This document shows positions 23,636 to 39,009 of a DNA stretch of 39,681 bases, in pieces. Each line of letters begins with the position of its first letter. The first letter of the stretch is position 1. Position numbers and translations under genes: made by a program. This DNA comes from an uncultured Alphaproteobacteria bacterium. Lineage in GTDB: Bacteria > Pseudomonadota > Alphaproteobacteria > Rhodobacterales > Rhodobacteraceae. Below the pieces are notes generated by a model. The model saw only the letters and a list, made by a program, of their open reading frames with translations. It was not told the DNA's origin and searched no databases. Location of the stretch: contig CACIIZ010000009.1 of NCBI GenBank assembly GCA_902586855.1, forward strand, positions 1 to 39,681, given 5' to 3'.

Positions 23636-24127
23636 TTATAAAGAGTCAAAGATTGTTGGCTCTGATTTCATTAAATCCCCAAACCATCCAATCCCATCTT
23701 CTTCTTGTATTTGCCAACCAACTGGGACTTCTGTAGTTAAGCCTGAGCGAGAACTGAAAACGAATGCTTTGAATAAAATAACAGCTTTCTCTGCACTATA
23801 ATCCCGTGTTTTCAGTGGCGCAAACTCATCAATGAAAAGTCCTTGAAGTTTTCTAGGCTTATTATTTGCATGAAATTTTACCCTTTTAAATATGTATGAA
23901 TTAATGTATTGTATCGCAGTTTCTCCGGCTTCTATTTCATTAAGAAATTCTAAAACTTTTGTCCCTGCTTCCTCTATAGATTCAGCCTTAATCTCATTAT
24001 AGTGCTGATTTAAACCATCCGTTAGATAGTTGGCAAAAGAAGACATTGGGGCATTTCCAGTTAGAAATCCCCCTGCGGCTTTTGCTACACAAGCGCTAAA
24101 TACCCATTCTGGACAGAATTTAGCCAT
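23636..24127 (-). CDS. Uncharacterised protein (163 aa)
   Basis: Complete ORF with AGGAG Shine-Dalgarno before the ATG; soluble, no recognised family. Confidence 0.6.
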   Translation of the reverse strand: MAKFCPEWVFSACVAKAAGGFLTGNAPMSSFANYLTDGLNQHYNEIKAESIEEAGTKVLEFLNEIEAGETAIQYINSYIFKRVKFHANNKPRKLQGLFIDEFAPLKTRDYSAEKAVILFKAFVFSSRSGLTTEVPVGWQIQEEDGIGWFGDLMKSEPTIFDSL

Positions 24128-26596: not shown

Positions 26597-27601
26597 TTAT
26601 CTTTGACTTAGGTTTAGATGGTGATGGTTCTTGAAAACCCAATTTTGAACATCATTTGCTGCATAAGAGTAATGTTTTTGTATCTTTAAAGTCTGCCTAA
26701 ACTCACTTCCAGATATTTCTGTGAGATATTCTTTTGAATGATTGCAGTCATCATGAAGTACGATACCACGGCAAGCTGAGCAGTGATAGGCGCCACCGTG
26801 AGTTATTATTTTAATCGATAGATTATTTTCGTACTTTCTCGTCATTTCAATTGCAGCATTATTTTTGTATACACCCTCAGCTCCGGCGTGATCGCGACCT
26901 ATCGAAAAATGAGTAAAGCCTAACCATTCTCGTAGCTTTGCATGATGTATAGCTTCCCTAGGTCCAGCGTAAAACATGTTAGCCCTTATCGGGATAAAAT
27001 GGATTTTATTCTTATAACGTGGTTTCATTACTGAGTCATATAGTCCTCTAAGTTTTCCACAATCAATGTCCCCAAACTTTTTGGGGCCTACCATGGGATT
27101 AATGACTACTAGCTCACACTGCTCGAGCATTTTATCAATTATTTTTTCGTGACCTAAATGTGGTATATTTCTAGTTTGGAAAGCTCCTACAGAACCAAAT
27201 TCATTAATAAGCTCTTGTATTCTTTTCTGAGCTAAAAGAATTTCTCTAGTGTAAGTATCAAGTTTTTTTTGAAATTGACTATTCAGAGTGAATCTTTTCA
27301 AGAAATTACCCCTATTCAGTGACAATCTACAGCCAATATAATTGCTTGGCACTGAACCAAAAATCAATCGCTTGATCCTTTCGTATGGAAGGTCAAATTT
27401 TTCATAGGCAACAAACATTTCAGGGATCAGTGGAATTAGTATAGGTAAGCCATTCGACGGACAGTTGAATTTTTTTAGTTTCTGGGCAGAACTGACAAAA
27501 TTTTTGATCAGCATACCGCTCCTTATACCAGCAAGATCTATAAGAGCTCTTTCAACAAAATTCGCTTCATCCTCGAGTTTAAGGTGGGGTTGTATATTCA
27601 T
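26597..27601 (-). CDS. ATP-sulfurylase (sulfate adenylyltransferase)-like protein
   Basis: FQTRNIPHLGHE (HxxH motif), FYAGPREAIHHAKLREWLGFTHFSIGRDHAG, CSACRGIVLHDDCNH...ISGSEFRQ, all matching the Sat family. Confidence 0.85.
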   Translation of the reverse strand: MNIQPHLKLEDEANFVERALIDLAGIRSGMLIKNFVSSAQKLKKFNCPSNGLPILIPLIPEMFVAYEKFDLPYERIKRLIFGSVPSNYIGCRLSLNRGNFLKRFTLNSQFQKKLDTYTREILLAQKRIQELINEFGSVGAFQTRNIPHLGHEKIIDKMLEQCELVVINPMVGPKKFGDIDCGKLRGLYDSVMKPRYKNKIHFIPIRANMFYAGPREAIHHAKLREWLGFTHFSIGRDHAGAEGVYKNNAAIEMTRKYENNLSIKIITHGGAYHCSACRGIVLHDDCNHSKEYLTEISGSEFRQTLKIQKHYSYAANDVQNWVFKNHHHLNLSQR

Positions 27602-27960: not shown

Positions 27961-30210
27961 ATGGTGACGTTAAGTTTAGATCAAGCCATTCAGCAGGCAA
28001 AGTCATATCTAGAAGAAGATCAATTAGAGGACGCAAGGGATCTTTATCACGCTGTTTTACAAAAGTTTCCAAAAAATGAGAGAGTGCACAAAGATTTAGC
28101 TGTATTACAGAACCCATTAAAAACCTTTCTCAAAGAACCACCTACGGAACTCATAAAACAATTAATCGAACTTTATAATCAGGATCAGTTAGTGTCTGTT
28201 GCTGAAAAAACTTTGATGTTGACGTTAGAGTTTCCTGGATCTGCTGCTATCTGGAATATGTTGGCCGTTGTGAATAAAAAGTTGGGGAGAAACAAAGTAT
28301 CAGAAGTTGGATTTAAAAATGTAATCACCCTTAGACCTAATTATTTAGCAGGATACATAAGGTTAGGTATCGTATTAAAAGAGCAAGGAAAACATGACGA
28401 AGCGATAAAGGTATATGATAAAGTTCTTTCAATAAAATCAGATTATTCCGAAGCCTTTAACAGCAGAGGTAATATTCTAAAGGAACAAGGTAAATTAAAC
28501 GAAGCTATCCAGGAATATCGCAAAGCAATTTCACTAGAGACCAATTTTGTTGAGGCCTACAATAACCTTGGTCTCGCACTGATAGCACAAGGCAGATTGA
28601 AAGAGGCGATAAAAGAATTTCGTATAGCCATCTCATTCCAATCAGATTTTTCTGAATGTCACTATAATTTGGGCTGTGCACTACATCAGCAAGGTAAGTT
28701 GAGAGAAGCCATAGAAGCTTATGAGAAAGCCTCGCACCACGGGTTGGTCCGTGCTGCTGATACATTCCATCGAAAAGGAAATGCTTTGAGAGACCTAGGT
28801 AGGTTTGAGGAGGCATTGCAGGCATATAAGGAAGCAGTATCGTTGAAGCCAGATTTTGCTGAATGTTATTTTTGTATTGGTAATACACTTATGGATTTGG
28901 GTAAATTAGGCAAATCTATCTGGGCGTATAGGAAAGCTATCTTAATAAAACCCGATTTTGCGGAGGCCTACCATAACATGGGTAATGCTCTTCAAAACCA
29001 AGATCGAATTAAAAGTGCTTTAACGGCATACGGAAAAGCTGTTTCAATTAAACCTAATTTTGTAGAGGCCTATAAAAATATGGGAAATGCTTATTACAAT
29101 CTAGCCCAACTTGATAAAGCATTAGAGGCCTATAATAAGGTGCTGTCACTTAAACCAGATTCATCTGACTCGTATAACAATATAGGTCTCACTTTTCTTG
29201 AAAGAGGAATGTTTGACGAGGCAGAAAAAGCTTTTAAGAAAGCTTTATTGCTCGATTCCAATAGTGCTAAGGTTTATTACAATCTTTCATTATTTCATAA
29301 TATCCAAGGTAATTTAAAGTTAGGATTTGAATTGTATGAATGGCGAAGTAGATTGGAAGGTAAGAACATAGGATCTTTCAAGAAAGAGGGGAGACTGCAA
29401 CGAAACCAAAGCGTCAATAGAAAACATATTTTGATTCATGAAGAGCAAGGATTGGGGGATACAATACAATTTTGTCGCTATCTCCCGTTACTTGAAAAAA
29501 ATGGAGCTACTGTTAGCTTCAAGGTAACACCAACGTTACATAAGTTGCTTTCAACCCTTGAAGGATCTGTCTCTATTATCAGTGATGCTCCAGAAAAAGG
29601 AAGGTTTGATTATGAGACATCGTTGCTGAGTCTACCTCATTTTTTTGGAACTCAACTTTCAACAATTCCATCGGAATCCCCATATCTTCATGCAGATAAT
29701 CTGAAAATTAGATCTTGGAAGAAAAAACTGAAGAAGAATAGCTTTAAGATTGGCATTTGTTGGCAAGGAAATACAGGGAAAGTTGATGTTGGGAGGTCAT
29801 TTCCTGTAGTTCTCTTTGAGGCTATATCAAAGATCTCAAATATTGAGTTGCTAAGTTTACACAAGGGCGAAGGAGAGGATCAACTTTTGAATGCCGGTTT
29901 TCCAATCACAACTTTTGGTGAAGATTTTGATGCTGGTCAAGATGCGTTTGCTGATACTGCAGCTGTCATGATTTTGTCTGATCTTATTATTACATCCGAC
30001 ACGGCAGTGGCACATTTGGCTGGAGCTTTGGGATGTAAAACATGGGTGGCCTTAAAATATTTACCTGACTGGCGCTGGCTGATGGACAGAAGGGATAGTC
30101 CATGGTATCCCACGTTATCATTATATCGGCAGGACGAACCTGGGAATTGGGAGAGTGTTTTTAAAAATTTTGAGCATAATATCCGGTTGCTAGTTGAGAG
30201 AGGTCAATGA
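27961..30210 (+). CDS. TPR-repeat protein with C-terminal GT9/heptosyltransferase-like glycosyltransferase domain
   Basis: About 10 tandem 34-aa TPRs (..SIKPNFVEAYKNMGNAYYNLAQLDKALEAYNK..), then EEQGLGDTIQFCRYLPLL...DLIITSDTAVAHLAGALGCKTWVALKYLPDWRWLMDRRDSPWYPT. Confidence 0.92.
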   Translation: MVTLSLDQAIQQAKSYLEEDQLEDARDLYHAVLQKFPKNERVHKDLAVLQNPLKTFLKEPPTELIKQLIELYNQDQLVSVAEKTLMLTLEFPGSAAIWNMLAVVNKKLGRNKVSEVGFKNVITLRPNYLAGYIRLGIVLKEQGKHDEAIKVYDKVLSIKSDYSEAFNSRGNILKEQGKLNEAIQEYRKAISLETNFVEAYNNLGLALIAQGRLKEAIKEFRIAISFQSDFSECHYNLGCALHQQGKLREAIEAYEKASHHGLVRAADTFHRKGNALRDLGRFEEALQAYKEAVSLKPDFAECYFCIGNTLMDLGKLGKSIWAYRKAILIKPDFAEAYHNMGNALQNQDRIKSALTAYGKAVSIKPNFVEAYKNMGNAYYNLAQLDKALEAYNKVLSLKPDSSDSYNNIGLTFLERGMFDEAEKAFKKALLLDSNSAKVYYNLSLFHNIQGNLKLGFELYEWRSRLEGKNIGSFKKEGRLQRNQSVNRKHILIHEEQGLGDTIQFCRYLPLLEKNGATVSFKVTPTLHKLLSTLEGSVSIISDAPEKGRFDYETSLLSLPHFFGTQLSTIPSESPYLHADNLKIRSWKKKLKKNSFKIGICWQGNTGKVDVGRSFPVVLFEAISKISNIELLSLHKGEGEDQLLNAGFPITTFGEDFDAGQDAFADTAAVMILSDLIITSDTAVAHLAGALGCKTWVALKYLPDWRWLMDRRDSPWYPTLSLYRQDEPGNWESVFKNFEHNIRLLVERGQ
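28300..29300 (+). repeat. Tandem TPR-encoding repeats (approx. 102-nt period)
   Basis: Repeated protein motif [A/S]xxxxPDFxEAYxNxGxxLxxQGxxxEAIxAYxKA. Confidence 0.85.
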
Positions 30211-30601
30211 AGTGAACCCCCCTTTTGTTTCAATTTCTTGGGGAGAGTTGTTTGATAAGATAACCATCCTCCAAATCAAATTCGAAAAAATCACAACTCA
30301 AAAGTCTCTAGAAAATATCAATCAAGAATTAACGCATCTGATTTCAATTTTTGATATCAAGTTTAAGGACAATGCGCTAGCAAAGGATCTAAAAAAAGAC
30401 CTAGAGCGTGTAAATAATAAACTTTGGGAAATTGAAGATCAGATAAGAGAAAAGGAAAGAAAAAAAACTTTTGACAAGGAATTTATTCAACTGGCCCGAA
30501 GTGTTTATATAACCAATGATGAGCGTGCGAGGATCAAGAAAAAAATAAATGTTACCTTTGAATCGAGCGTGGTTGAGGAGAAGTCATATTCAGAATACTG
30601 A
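30194..30601 (+). CDS. DUF6165-like small helical protein
   Basis: SWGELFDKITILQIKFEKI...NKLWEIEDQIREKE...AR.VYITNDERARIKKKIN; overlaps the end of the TPR-GT gene. Confidence 0.7.
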   Translation: MREVNEVNPPFVSISWGELFDKITILQIKFEKITTQKSLENINQELTHLISIFDIKFKDNALAKDLKKDLERVNNKLWEIEDQIREKERKKTFDKEFIQLARSVYITNDERARIKKKINVTFESSVVEEKSYSEY

Positions 30602-30680: not shown

Positions 30681-31322
30681 TCAGGTTAAGTAGTTATTTT
30701 TCTTAAATATTTTAAGGATTTCGCGTGCTTTTTGATTAACGGTAAAGCCACTCCTATGTTCTAGTACTAAATCAGGGTACTTTGGTTCTTCTTTTTTTAT
30801 ATCAATCCCAGTTACATTCTTTATTTTATTGTTTTTGAAACTCGAATAAAGACCTTTACTATCCCTTTTTTCTAGCTCTGAAAGGGATGTTTTAAGATAA
30901 ATTTCAAAATATCCTGGTAAATTGGCTCTGTTCCAAGAGAAGATTTCTTCAAACATGGCGATCACAGACGTAATTACAGTAAAACCTTGTGAGGCTAGTA
31001 ATAGACTTAACCGTGAGTAGGCCATGCCAAACAGTTTTCTACTGGCAATCCCATAGTCATTTTGGTCAATGACGTTTTCAAATAATTTTTTACGCATATC
31101 GTCGCCATCAAGTAGAATAGGTGCAAGCCCCTTAGAAGAAATAAGATTTTTTAGTTCATGAGCTAAGCTTGTTTTTCCAGCACCTGATAATCCTGTTATC
31201 CAAATAACTTTTCCTGAACATGAATTAAACTCATGTAAAATGGGGTCGTTAAGGTTTAAATCAAAAGGAATCTGTTCAATTTTGTTCATTTCACCTATCT
31301 GTTCCTCTGTAGGGGCCTTCAT
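30681..31322 (-). CDS. Adenylylsulfate (APS) kinase-like protein
   Basis: GKVIWITGLSGAGKTSLAHEL P-loop, LLDGDDMRKKLF, FEIYLKTSLSELEKRDSKGLY, all matching the CysC family. Confidence 0.85.
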   Translation of the reverse strand: MKAPTEEQIGEMNKIEQIPFDLNLNDPILHEFNSCSGKVIWITGLSGAGKTSLAHELKNLISSKGLAPILLDGDDMRKKLFENVIDQNDYGIASRKLFGMAYSRLSLLLASQGFTVITSVIAMFEEIFSWNRANLPGYFEIYLKTSLSELEKRDSKGLYSSFKNNKIKNVTGIDIKKEEPKYPDLVLEHRSGFTVNQKAREILKIFKKNNYLT

Positions 31323-31352: not shown

Positions 31353-32441
31353 CTACAGCTTTAGAAATCGGTTCAACCATCCTATTGTATTAAGAAAATA
31401 ATTTGATGTTGCCGTCTCGTCGCTGAGCATTATCAAGTCTGATCCAAGTTCAATTGAGTGCTGAAGAGCCATTATTTCACCTTTAGTCGGTTGCATGCTT
31501 TGTTGCATGCTTGTAAGATTCTCTGTAGCCATAATTAGAGGAAGACCGTAAGATTTTGTGGCTATACAAATCTTGAGTATGGATTTATAGAAATTTTCAA
31601 TTCCGACTTCGGCTAATAGATCACCTCTGTCAATCATAATAGCATCAGAAAATCTCACTATTTGTTCAACATTTTCGACCCCTGATTTGTTTTCAATCTT
31701 GGCTACTAGTAACTTGTCTGGGAATTTATTTCTGATTATTTTTAGGGTTTTACTATCCTGTATGAAGCTTAAGCCTATAGCATCAAAGTCTAGTTTCCCT
31801 ACCTGACTCAGGAAATCTAAGTAAAATTCAAGTTGTAAATCATTGTCATAGATACTTCCAGGTATATTCAGACCCTTCCTTGGAAGAAGCTGGAATTTGG
31901 TTCTTGATCTCCCACACACACTATTTTCTTTTTGATCGAAGAAATCAAATTCATATAGTCCATCTGATAAACTAAACGATTTTAACACACTTGTTATATT
32001 TGGTAATGGTTTTGTTAGTTCGACCTGTCTGATATTATTTTTAACTTCCTTCGGACCAAAATAAAAATTTATACATTCGTTTTTCTTGATACTTATTGGT
32101 AAAGAATTATTTGTTCTTGGTTTAATTCCTGGAATATCAAGTAAAATTTTGGTTTTAGAACTTGCTTTTCTAATGGATTTAGAAACCTTAGTATGCCAAT
32201 CAATCGAACTATGGCTCCCATTTAGTCGGAAATAATTAGTGTATTGACTTATCTTCTGAACTGAAGAAGGTGTTGATGACTTGGGTCCTATTGTGGCAAG
32301 AATCCCTGGATGGTCAGTAGGAAACATAAGAGAGGAGTTCCCAAAATATTTTGATTTTCTTTTGTCTTGGGAATAACGCCCGTCGACTGCAAAGCGACGA
32401 TCCTCTTTTAGACCAAATTTGAAATAGTTTAAATGGATCAT
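31353..32441 (-). CDS. Pyruvate-kinase-like protein, short, C-terminal domain absent
   Basis: ILATIGPKSSTP, FRLNGSHSS (cf. RLNFSHG), LLVAKIENKSGVENVEQIVRFSDAIMIDRGDLLAEVGIE, PTKGEIMALQHSIELGSDLIMLSDETA. Confidence 0.85.
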   Translation of the reverse strand: MIHLNYFKFGLKEDRRFAVDGRYSQDKRKSKYFGNSSLMFPTDHPGILATIGPKSSTPSSVQKISQYTNYFRLNGSHSSIDWHTKVSKSIRKASSKTKILLDIPGIKPRTNNSLPISIKKNECINFYFGPKEVKNNIRQVELTKPLPNITSVLKSFSLSDGLYEFDFFDQKENSVCGRSRTKFQLLPRKGLNIPGSIYDNDLQLEFYLDFLSQVGKLDFDAIGLSFIQDSKTLKIIRNKFPDKLLVAKIENKSGVENVEQIVRFSDAIMIDRGDLLAEVGIENFYKSILKICIATKSYGLPLIMATENLTSMQQSMQPTKGEIMALQHSIELGSDLIMLSDETATSNYFLNTIGWLNRFLKL

Positions 32442-32494: not shown

Positions 32495-33286
32495 TTAAGC
32501 TACTCTTCTCAGGTAGCCTTTTGGGGACATGCTTAATAGTAATTTGTTATCAATATCAGTATCTACGACAAAATTTTTGCTCTCTTTAAGAAATTTTTCT
32601 ACGGCGCCTTTAGGATTATTATTAATATCCCAAGGGCGATCTTCAAAAGATCCTGGAGGCATTTGTGCGACGATTGTATCACAAACAATCAAGTAACTAT
32701 TTTTTGTTACTAGGCTTTTATAAAGTCTTAATTCCTCTAGTACATGTTCTTCAGTATGGTTGCTGTCTAGCATTATCATCACTTTTGCCCCATCAGGAAT
32801 AAGCTCTCTTATTTCTTTGTAGATGGCCTGCTCAATACTTGATCCTTCAAGCATAACAATCTTATTAGCTAAAGGATGAGACCTTATAGCATCTCTATTA
32901 TGTTTTCTTATGTCAATATCAACTCCAATGACTTTCCGTTCTATTTTGGGAGTATTCTGGTTTTCAATGGGGTCATTTATTTCCGCTACATCTAGTAGGG
33001 AAAGCATCGATGCAGTGAAGCAAAGAGATCCTCCGTGCGCAATTCCTGTCTCAATTACTATATCAGGCTTTGTGTTCCATATTATTTCTTGAATAGCTAA
33101 AATATCTTGAGGCAACTGAATTATAGGTCTACCGAGCCAACTAAAATGGTAGGAGTATTTATGCTTTGAAGATTGATTGAGCCATTTTTTGCTCGTTTTG
33201 AACAAATCAGGATCATTGCCCTGAGCCAAGATCTGATGCTTACATTCTTCGTGGAATAATTTGATTGGATTTGTTTCTTTGGTCAT
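32495..33286 (-). CDS. CmcI / cephalosporin-hydroxylase-family (rhamnosyl O-methyltransferase-like) protein
   Basis: FSWLGRPIIQLPQDILAIQEIIWNTKPDIVIETGIAHGGSLCFTASML...GVDIDIR...VMIMLDSNHTEEHVLEELRLY. Confidence 0.88.
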   Translation of the reverse strand: MTKETNPIKLFHEECKHQILAQGNDPDLFKTSKKWLNQSSKHKYSYHFSWLGRPIIQLPQDILAIQEIIWNTKPDIVIETGIAHGGSLCFTASMLSLLDVAEINDPIENQNTPKIERKVIGVDIDIRKHNRDAIRSHPLANKIVMLEGSSIEQAIYKEIRELIPDGAKVMIMLDSNHTEEHVLEELRLYKSLVTKNSYLIVCDTIVAQMPPGSFEDRPWDINNNPKGAVEKFLKESKNFVVDTDIDNKLLLSMSPKGYLRRVA

Positions 33287-33454: not shown

Positions 33455-33477
33455 TCAAATGGGTGCGGAGGTTTAGC

Positions 33478-34254
33478 ATGAAAGTTGTGATTTTAGCAGG
33501 TGGTTATGGTACCAGGCTTAGTGAGGAAACTCATCTGAGACCCAAACCAATGGTTGAAATTGGAGGTAAACCTATCCTCTGGCATATTATGAAAATTTTT
33601 TCTTCACATGGATTTAACGAATTTATTGTCTGTTGTGGATACAAAGGCTATATAATCAAGGAATATTTTGCCAATTATCTTCTTCATAATTCTGATGTTA
33701 CCATTGATCTGAATACAAGATCCATAGATGTTCATTCAAATAATGCAGAGCCTTGGAAAGTAACACTAATTGATACTGGAGAAACAACACTCACTGGTGA
33801 GAGACTGAAAAGAGTGTGCCCATACTTGGAGGATCAACAGGATTTTTTCTTTACCTATGGGGATGGGATAAGTGATGTAGACCTAACTAAATTAAAAAAA
33901 TTCCATAATAGACATGGTAAGTATGCTTCCGTCACTGTGATTAAACCGCCAGGTCGATATGGCTCTGTTAGTCTTCAATCATGTGGTAAAGTGAATAGTT
34001 TTGAAGAAAAACCACCTGGTGATGGGGGATACGTGAATGGGGGGTTTTTTATTCTTTCAAAAAAGGTTTTTGATTTCTTGCCTTTAGAGAGTGAGTCCTG
34101 GGAAAGTAGTCCTATGTTAAAATTAGTAGCTGAAGATGAATTAATGGCTTTTAGGCATGATGGTTTCTGGTCGGCAATGGATACCCTTAGAGACAAAAAT
34201 TATTTAGAAGGCTTATGGAACTCTAATAGTGCGCCTTGGAAAAAATGGTTGTAA
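33478..34254 (+). CDS. rfbF: Glucose-1-phosphate cytidylyltransferase (ORF open from 33463)
   Basis: MKVVILAGGYGTRLSEETHLRPKPMVEIGGKPILWHIMKIFSSHGFNEFIVCCGYKGYIIKEYF; GGAGG Shine-Dalgarno before the ATG at 33478. Confidence 0.95.
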   Translation: MKVVILAGGYGTRLSEETHLRPKPMVEIGGKPILWHIMKIFSSHGFNEFIVCCGYKGYIIKEYFANYLLHNSDVTIDLNTRSIDVHSNNAEPWKVTLIDTGETTLTGERLKRVCPYLEDQQDFFFTYGDGISDVDLTKLKKFHNRHGKYASVTVIKPPGRYGSVSLQSCGKVNSFEEKPPGDGGYVNGGFFILSKKVFDFLPLESESWESSPMLKLVAEDELMAFRHDGFWSAMDTLRDKNYLEGLWNSNSAPWKKWL

Positions 34255-38321: not shown

Positions 38322-38816
38322 CTATATTCGTTTTCTATCCAATTCAGGACCTACATATGGGCCATTCTTAAATTCCAGTACTTGGGTTTGATCTTCTAGT
38401 ATTTCGTATCCATGAGCCCCTGTTAACAAAATGATGACATCACCCTGAGATACTATGAGTTCTCTTATTTTTGTTCCTGATAGATCAAAAATGGTTGCTT
38501 TGATTTTTCCTTGCTGTACAAAAATAGCTTCCTGAGTTCTATCATTTGTCCTGTTGACTCGATTATGGATATGAGCAGGCAAACTTTTTCCTGAATCATA
38601 TCCCCAGACACCAAATTGAATAAATTCAGTTTTATGCGAGTAGAAATTTAGTCCCGGTTTCTTAATTACTTTAGCAGGGATGTATCTGGCTAAAATCGTA
38701 CTACCATCGGATATTTCAAGTATTTTAGACGATGATTGTGAGAGTTTGCCAGTTGAGTACGTCTGGAATTCGTTATGATTAGCTACACTTAAATTTTCTT
38801 CATTAATATCTAACAT
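38322..38816 (-). CDS. Cupin-like protein (ORF open to 38975)
   Basis: FGVWGYDSGKSLPAHIHNRVNRTNDRTQEAIFVQQGKIKATIFD..VSQGDVIILLTGAHGYEIL. ATG at 38816 with GGGAG upstream is the likely start. Confidence 0.75.
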   Translation of the reverse strand: MLDINEENLSVANHNEFQTYSTGKLSQSSSKILEISDGSTILARYIPAKVIKKPGLNFYSHKTEFIQFGVWGYDSGKSLPAHIHNRVNRTNDRTQEAIFVQQGKIKATIFDLSGTKIRELIVSQGDVIILLTGAHGYEILEDQTQVLEFKNGPYVGPELDRKRI

Positions 38817-39009
38817 TGATAACTCCCATTTTTCATGGCTTAGACAGCAAATAATATGCCAATGTGTCTTCTGGATCAGCCCAATTGGTACTATTCCGAA
38901 ATTGTAGGGAAGCTCCGATAGAAAGCTAATGACTAGCCTAAACTGTTTCAGTGCAGGGAAGGACGTTGCTTGCAATTTGGAGCTAACAAGAATCAGATTT
39001 AATATTTTT

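Follow-up and report, generated by a model that had tools for sequence, protein, structure and literature searches.

A pyruvate-kinase-like gene linked to ATP-sulfurylase-like and APS-kinase-like genes, with a possible role in surface decoration

Introduction

The nearest worked-out logic for the locus described here is that of the MeOPN pathway of Campylobacter jejuni, which combines a kinase, a nucleotidyltransferase, an APS-kinase-like 3'-kinase and transfer to a glycan. Its enzymes Cj1415-Cj1418 produce CDP-phosphoramidate 3'-phosphate (PMC11800397). The same arrangement, an APS-kinase-like 3'-kinase beside a nucleotidyltransferase and a kinase, occurs in a cassette of the window, which is the whole 39,681-nucleotide stretch of DNA analysed here, from an uncultured alphaproteobacterium. 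The first two steps of MeOPN are carried out by other families than here (glutamine kinase and phosphoglutamine cytidylyltransferase), and no homologs of these two enzymes or of the amidohydrolase were seen in the window cassette.

The cassette also resembles two well-known systems. With the K+-independent, Lys117-type pyruvate kinase (PK, EC 2.7.1.40) its kinase shares the barrel fold, Lys117 and the residues of the phosphate, metal and ATP sites, but differs by Ala292→Asp, by Gln328→Glu in most cases, by its own clade and by neighbours from another pathway; in this genus it also lacks the C-terminal domain. With PAPS synthesis it shares the ATP sulfurylase (ATPS) and APS kinase (APSK) families and sometimes sulfotransferases and CysQ, whereas here the cassette always includes a PK gene, genomes of the genus hold a canonical copy at another place and the APS kinase has altered residues at its APS site. 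In the literature within reach (many subscription papers were not), nothing relevant was found on a PK with these partners or in capsule or SAR11 contexts.

The PK-like protein of the window

The PK-like gene occupies positions 31353-32441 of the minus strand as an open frame of exactly 362 aa, and the plus strand is broken by stops. Pfam search found the PF00224 PK barrel at residues 46-352 (E 2.8e-39, 135.5 bits versus a gathering score of 30) and no PK_C domain, which confirms the original prediction of a 362 aa PK paralog without the C-terminal domain. The protein does not reach the TIGR01064 pyruvate kinase equivalog cut-off (170.6 versus 306.4), which some relatives pass (L091 at 407, for example). 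It is also not a member of the truncated PK model PRK06739 (NF005234, 352 positions; 78 bits, cut-off 564), which it resembles in lacking the C-terminal domain and in its comparable length. Five same-genus orthologs are 51-63% identical to it. An AlphaFold model built from 26 relatives reached a pLDDT of 87, with a disordered N-terminus, and its top PDB matches are pyruvate kinases (E about 1e-30). The orthologs and the matches of the model place the open frame far beyond chance.

At the loci examined, only the window's genus lacks the C-terminal part; relatives end in PK_C, in an undefined tail of ~130 aa or in a nucleotidyltransferase domain. At the other end, a woesearchaeal PK-like protein (L083:9725-11422) has an N-terminal extension of ~90 aa with a weak HTH domain match.

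Three motifs were located on the minus strand. RLNGSHS (residues 72-78, 32208-32228) belongs to the PEP/ATP phosphate and metal site. LDIPGIKPRT (residues 101-110, 32112-32141) keeps Asp112 and Arg119 and supplies Ile113, Pro114 and Lys117 in rabbit numbering. MIDRGDL (residues 269-275, 31617-31637) has Asp where ordinary PK has Ala292 and is a mark of the clade. The original prediction had credited RLNGSHS, KIEN and RGD with several catalytic residues and had pointed to LDIPGIKPR in place of LDTKGPEIR; all four motifs are present, and "several" was an understatement, as all the recognised catalytic positions are kept. In a 26-sequence alignment the catalytic positions are invariant except for Ala292→Asp, which is accompanied in most variant PKs by Gln328→Glu. 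Positions 292 and 328, which we take in rabbit numbering, presumably belong to the pyruvate pocket.

To call the potassium-ligand Thr lost, as the original prediction also did, is misleading. It is only the backbone carbonyl of Thr113 that contacts K+, and K+-independent PKs are recognised by Lys117 combined with a hydrophobic residue at 113 (PMC4284704), the combination found here. Ala292→Asp tells more than the change at the K+ site. The Thr is likewise absent from the housekeeping PKs of the class, which read DLQGPKxR in the alignment. From these residues, the PK-fold kinase of the window is probably K+-independent.

A clade separate from housekeeping PKs

Variant loci were collected by a genome scan with MIDRGDL as the search pattern, which gave 80 loci. 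Since it was the search pattern, MIDRGDL cannot serve as independent proof of conservation; gene linkage, the DxPGxKxR motif and the tree, for which the MIDRGDL columns were left out, are not tied to the search pattern in this manner. A DxPGxKxR-like motif occurs in every retrieved variant PK, with Pro replacing the Gln of the class's DLQGPKxR. MIDRGDL lies within a PK gene in 13 genomes of an even class sample of 289 and is rare in a phylum sample (5/399). No variant PK was found in viral contigs, and phage records hold generic PKs only (23-33% identity).

In the tree, a 100/100 branch separates all 66 variant PKs from the housekeeping PKs of the class; the housekeeping set is alphaproteobacterial only, and the separation applies to that set. 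The subclade of the window, with SAR11 and SAR116, has a very long branch (3.74). Carriers of the clade include SAR11, SAR116, Prochlorococcus, Pseudomonas, Burkholderia, Planctomycetes, Bacteroidota and DPANN archaea. A normal housekeeping pyk is present on another contig of the window's genome (assembly 67% complete), and a second PK was found in 11 of the 15 carrier genomes tested; the four with no other PK are two from SAR11 and two small or partial genomes. In the SAR11 genomes HTCC9565 and AG-900-M14 (loci L052 and L045) the variant is the sole PF00224 gene found.

An ordinary extra glycolytic isozyme that drifted into glycan loci would explain the intact catalytic residues and the family members above the TIGR01064 cut-off. 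It would not explain the separate clade, Ala292→Asp, the fixed non-glycolytic neighbours and the loss of the C-terminal domain here, and we regard it as improbable. Given the separate clade, the second pyk and the conserved linkage described below, the gene neither groups with the housekeeping PKs of its class nor stands in for a missing one in this genome. It may instead be a specialised relative of PK that has been repurposed, an assignment that shares the tentative standing, a little under an even chance, of the activation module as a whole.

The cassette in the window and in the genus

As originally predicted, the PK gene adjoins APS-kinase-like and CmcI-type genes on the same strand. A CmcI/rhamnosyl O-methyltransferase-type gene (32495-33286, minus), which the genus includes in its cassette, lies 53 bases away on one side, and a gene for an APS-kinase-like P-loop kinase of 213 aa with altered APS-site motifs (30681-31322, minus) lies 30 bases away on the other. 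A fourth member had been overlooked: the gene at 26597-27601 (minus) encodes an ATP-sulfurylase-like HxxH nucleotidyltransferase of 334 aa and is contiguous with PK and APSK in relatives. Here and in one relative, a DUF6165 gene (30194-30601, plus) and a gene for a 749 aa TPR protein (27961-30210, plus), whose C-terminal part has no Pfam match, are found between APSK and ATPS. The divergent neighbour is a glucose-1-phosphate cytidylyltransferase gene (rfbF; 33463-34254, plus), which is kept in the genus.

The order in same-genus genomes is CmcI-PK-APSK-ATPS, with CmcI-APSK-ATPS-PK in one, and these cassettes adjoin rfbF and fliD. The position between flagellar and glycan genes and the O-methyltransferase-type gene make decoration of a surface or flagellar glycan likely in the genus. 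Three same-genus, cassette-bearing genomes encode a second, bifunctional sulfurylase/APS-kinase fusion (~570 aa) elsewhere; with this canonical sulfate-activation enzyme present, the cassette copies are specialised paralogs. Two further observations were made in the window. An orphan 163 aa open frame adjoining fliS (23636-24127) is 77-87% identical across five same-genus loci, and a cupin-like protein without a Pfam match (38322-38975) resembles a WbuC-type NCBIfam model weakly (29 bits versus 42).

The idea of a new role for a PK fold in a glycan setting is supported by the separate clade, the second pyk and the partner linkage; the pyruvylation that had been suggested as one such role is not. 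PEP-dependent glycan pyruvylation would fit the retained PEP-binding residues, but PK chemistry transfers phosphate and not the enolpyruvyl group, no ketal-pyruvyl transferase gene was seen in the cassettes, and the neighbours are of nucleotidyl-, 3'-kinase- and phospho/sulfo-transferase types. It is thus very improbable. With such neighbours, phosphorylation chemistry is the best fitting of the roles that had been suggested.

Linkage with sulfurylase-like and APS-kinase-like genes

An ATPS-like neighbour was found at 55 of the 80 variant PK loci and an APSK-like neighbour at 39. Linkage with both is kept across phyla. In the class sample, the ATPS-like gene is adjacent at 12 of 13 motif-bearing PK loci, and that of the window is 3.8 kb distant. 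PK and ATPS-like distances are correlated (Mantel r 0.85, 0/2000 permutations), to which shared organism history contributes.

Two motifs of true ATP sulfurylases, QTRN..H..H and GRDHAG, are retained in the ATPS-like proteins, and one copy passes the NCBIfam sulfurylase cut-off. The FQTRNVPHLGHE of these proteins also occurs in the archaeal enzyme 8A8D; FQTRN[VI]PH was accordingly dropped as a motif diagnostic against housekeeping copies, being common to the solved archaeal ATP sulfurylase. In the APSK-like protein of the window, the ENIRR and ISPYR positions are replaced and FTG reads VTG, unlike the housekeeping copies in the alignment. Some archaeal copies look canonical and pass the canonical cut-off.

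The composition of the module varies. No APS kinase was found in four genomes with PK and ATPS, three from planctomycetes and one from Parcubacteria, and no ATPS at all in two SAR11 genomes, which have a CTP_transf-like protein instead, although such absences are weakened by the incompleteness of MAGs. A CTP_transf-like protein of ~120 aa stands at the place of the ATPS-like gene at L046:9640-9990 and L051:5086-5457. Planctomycete PK-like proteins at L101, L104 and L118 carry, by Pfam, a MobA-like nucleotidyltransferase domain instead of PK_C, and the planctomycete fusion gene is followed by a CDP-alcohol phosphatidyltransferase gene. CysQ and sulfotransferase genes adjoin several modules, and some modules are located outside glycan clusters.

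Transferase type and the APS-kinase-like gene

TagF-like phosphotransferase genes were found at 0/39 APSK-positive and 6/18 APSK-negative loci. Nine further loci gave 0/8 and 1/1, so that the combined counts are 0/47 versus 7/19 (p 6e-5, uncorrected for kinship and a guide only, since about four independent cases lie behind the seven loci). L154, which was fetched for other reasons, obeys the same exclusion, and its genome has only a marginal APS-kinase match. Conversely, sulfotransferase-family genes lie near 11/39 APSK-positive and 0/18 APSK-negative loci. A CDP-alcohol-transferase profile drifted until it matched every locus; its column was discarded and the cluster and Pfam results were kept. 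The mutual exclusion of APSK-like and TagF-like genes would be expected if a 3'-phosphorylated donor serves sulfotransferase-like enzymes and a donor lacking the 3'-phosphate serves TagF-like enzymes.

The same counts bear on a dedicated PAPS supply, in which the ATPS-like and APSK-like enzymes would feed local sulfotransferases and the PK-like enzyme would regenerate ATP from ADP with PEP, pulling the reaction; TauE would import sulfate or export sulfite, and CysQ would remove PAP. The canonical ATPS motifs and the sulfotransferase genes at APSK-positive loci agree with it, as do the CysQ gene in the Aquirufa run APSK-ATPS-PK-TauE-CysQ and the sulfotransferase genes present in same-genus genomes. 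However, PK and ATPS also occur in genomes in which no APS kinase was found and alongside TagF-like transferases, a CTP_transf-like protein can take the place of ATPS, the APS site of the APSK-like enzyme is changed, and an altered pyruvate pocket would be needless for plain ATP regeneration. A PAPS supply, including these roles of TauE and CysQ, is therefore unlikely, though it is the main rival of an activation pathway. The TagF exclusion, the CTP_transf-like replacement and the PK and ATPS genomes without APSK set back pyruvylation as well.

Transporter genes beside PK

TauE adjoins PK in distant lineages (24 loci, cluster C6), AEC genes occur in 15 loci and Na/H-exchanger-type genes in four. 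All 15 loci with PK and AEC are without ATPS or APSK, and 14 of them also have TauE. Such compact PK-TauE/SafE-AEC operons occur in Pseudomonas, Burkholderia, enterics and acetic acid bacteria (L066, L069, L070, L084-L086, L088, L090, L095, L096, L098, L106, L107 and L109). These genes hint that a small anion is imported or exported. In a system of this kind, the kinase would act on the solute carried by TauE, AEC or the Na/H exchanger, and nucleotide activation would be a later add-on; the PK-TauE-AEC genes standing alone in Pseudomonas, Burkholderia and enterics favor it. But the window cassette has no transporter gene, and the tight link with ATPS would be left unexplained. We consider this quite unlikely as the whole explanation; it is compatible with an activation pathway, of which it could be the entry step.

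Discussion

The PK-like enzyme may carry out the opening step of a conserved activation module for surface glycan or lipid decoration, a reading to which we give slightly less than an even chance. For a module defined by its gene identities, clade, linkage, residue changes and co-variation with transferase type, we infer the direction, substrates and product as follows. The PK-fold kinase would phosphorylate a small substrate X with ATP, which is the most likely course, or move phosphate with PEP. The ATPS-like HxxH enzyme would then join a nucleotide to the tetrahedral phosphate (NTP + X-P → NDP-X + PPi). Where the downstream transferase is sulfotransferase-like, the APSK-like enzyme would add a 3'-phosphate. 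Finally, a transferase of sulfotransferase, TagF or CDP-alcohol type, depending on the organism, would place P-X on a glycan or lipid. For X, the candidates are alpha-hydroxy acids and phosphoramidate-like groups.

Activation of this kind is supported by the separate clade, the additional housekeeping pyk, the ATPS/APSK linkage, the correlated PK and ATPS distances, the second sulfurylase/APS kinase of the genus, the altered APSK site and the TagF exclusion, and also by the PK-nucleotidyltransferase fusion, the CTP_transf-like replacement and the genomes with PK and ATPS without APSK. It is weakened by the canonical ATPS motifs, the ATPS and APSK cut-offs passed, the CysQ and sulfotransferase neighbours, the AEC loci without ATPS or APSK and the modules outside glycan clusters.

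With matches to models that bear the names pyruvate kinase, ATP sulfurylase and APS kinase, genes of this clade are taken for parts of glycolysis or of sulfur metabolism. Because the variant is the only PK-family gene found in two SAR11 genomes, a glycolytic PK may be wrongly credited to these two in pathway reconstructions. It is conceivable, though we hold it somewhat less firmly than the module itself, that marine bacteria and DPANN archaea have an undescribed pathway in which enzymes resembling those of sulfate activation turn the product of a PK-fold kinase into a (3'-phospho)nucleotide, from which it is put on surface glycans or lipids as a new decoration. A new activated donor, if the module makes one, would bring a further chemistry to the surfaces of certain organisms that rank among the most abundant in the ocean.
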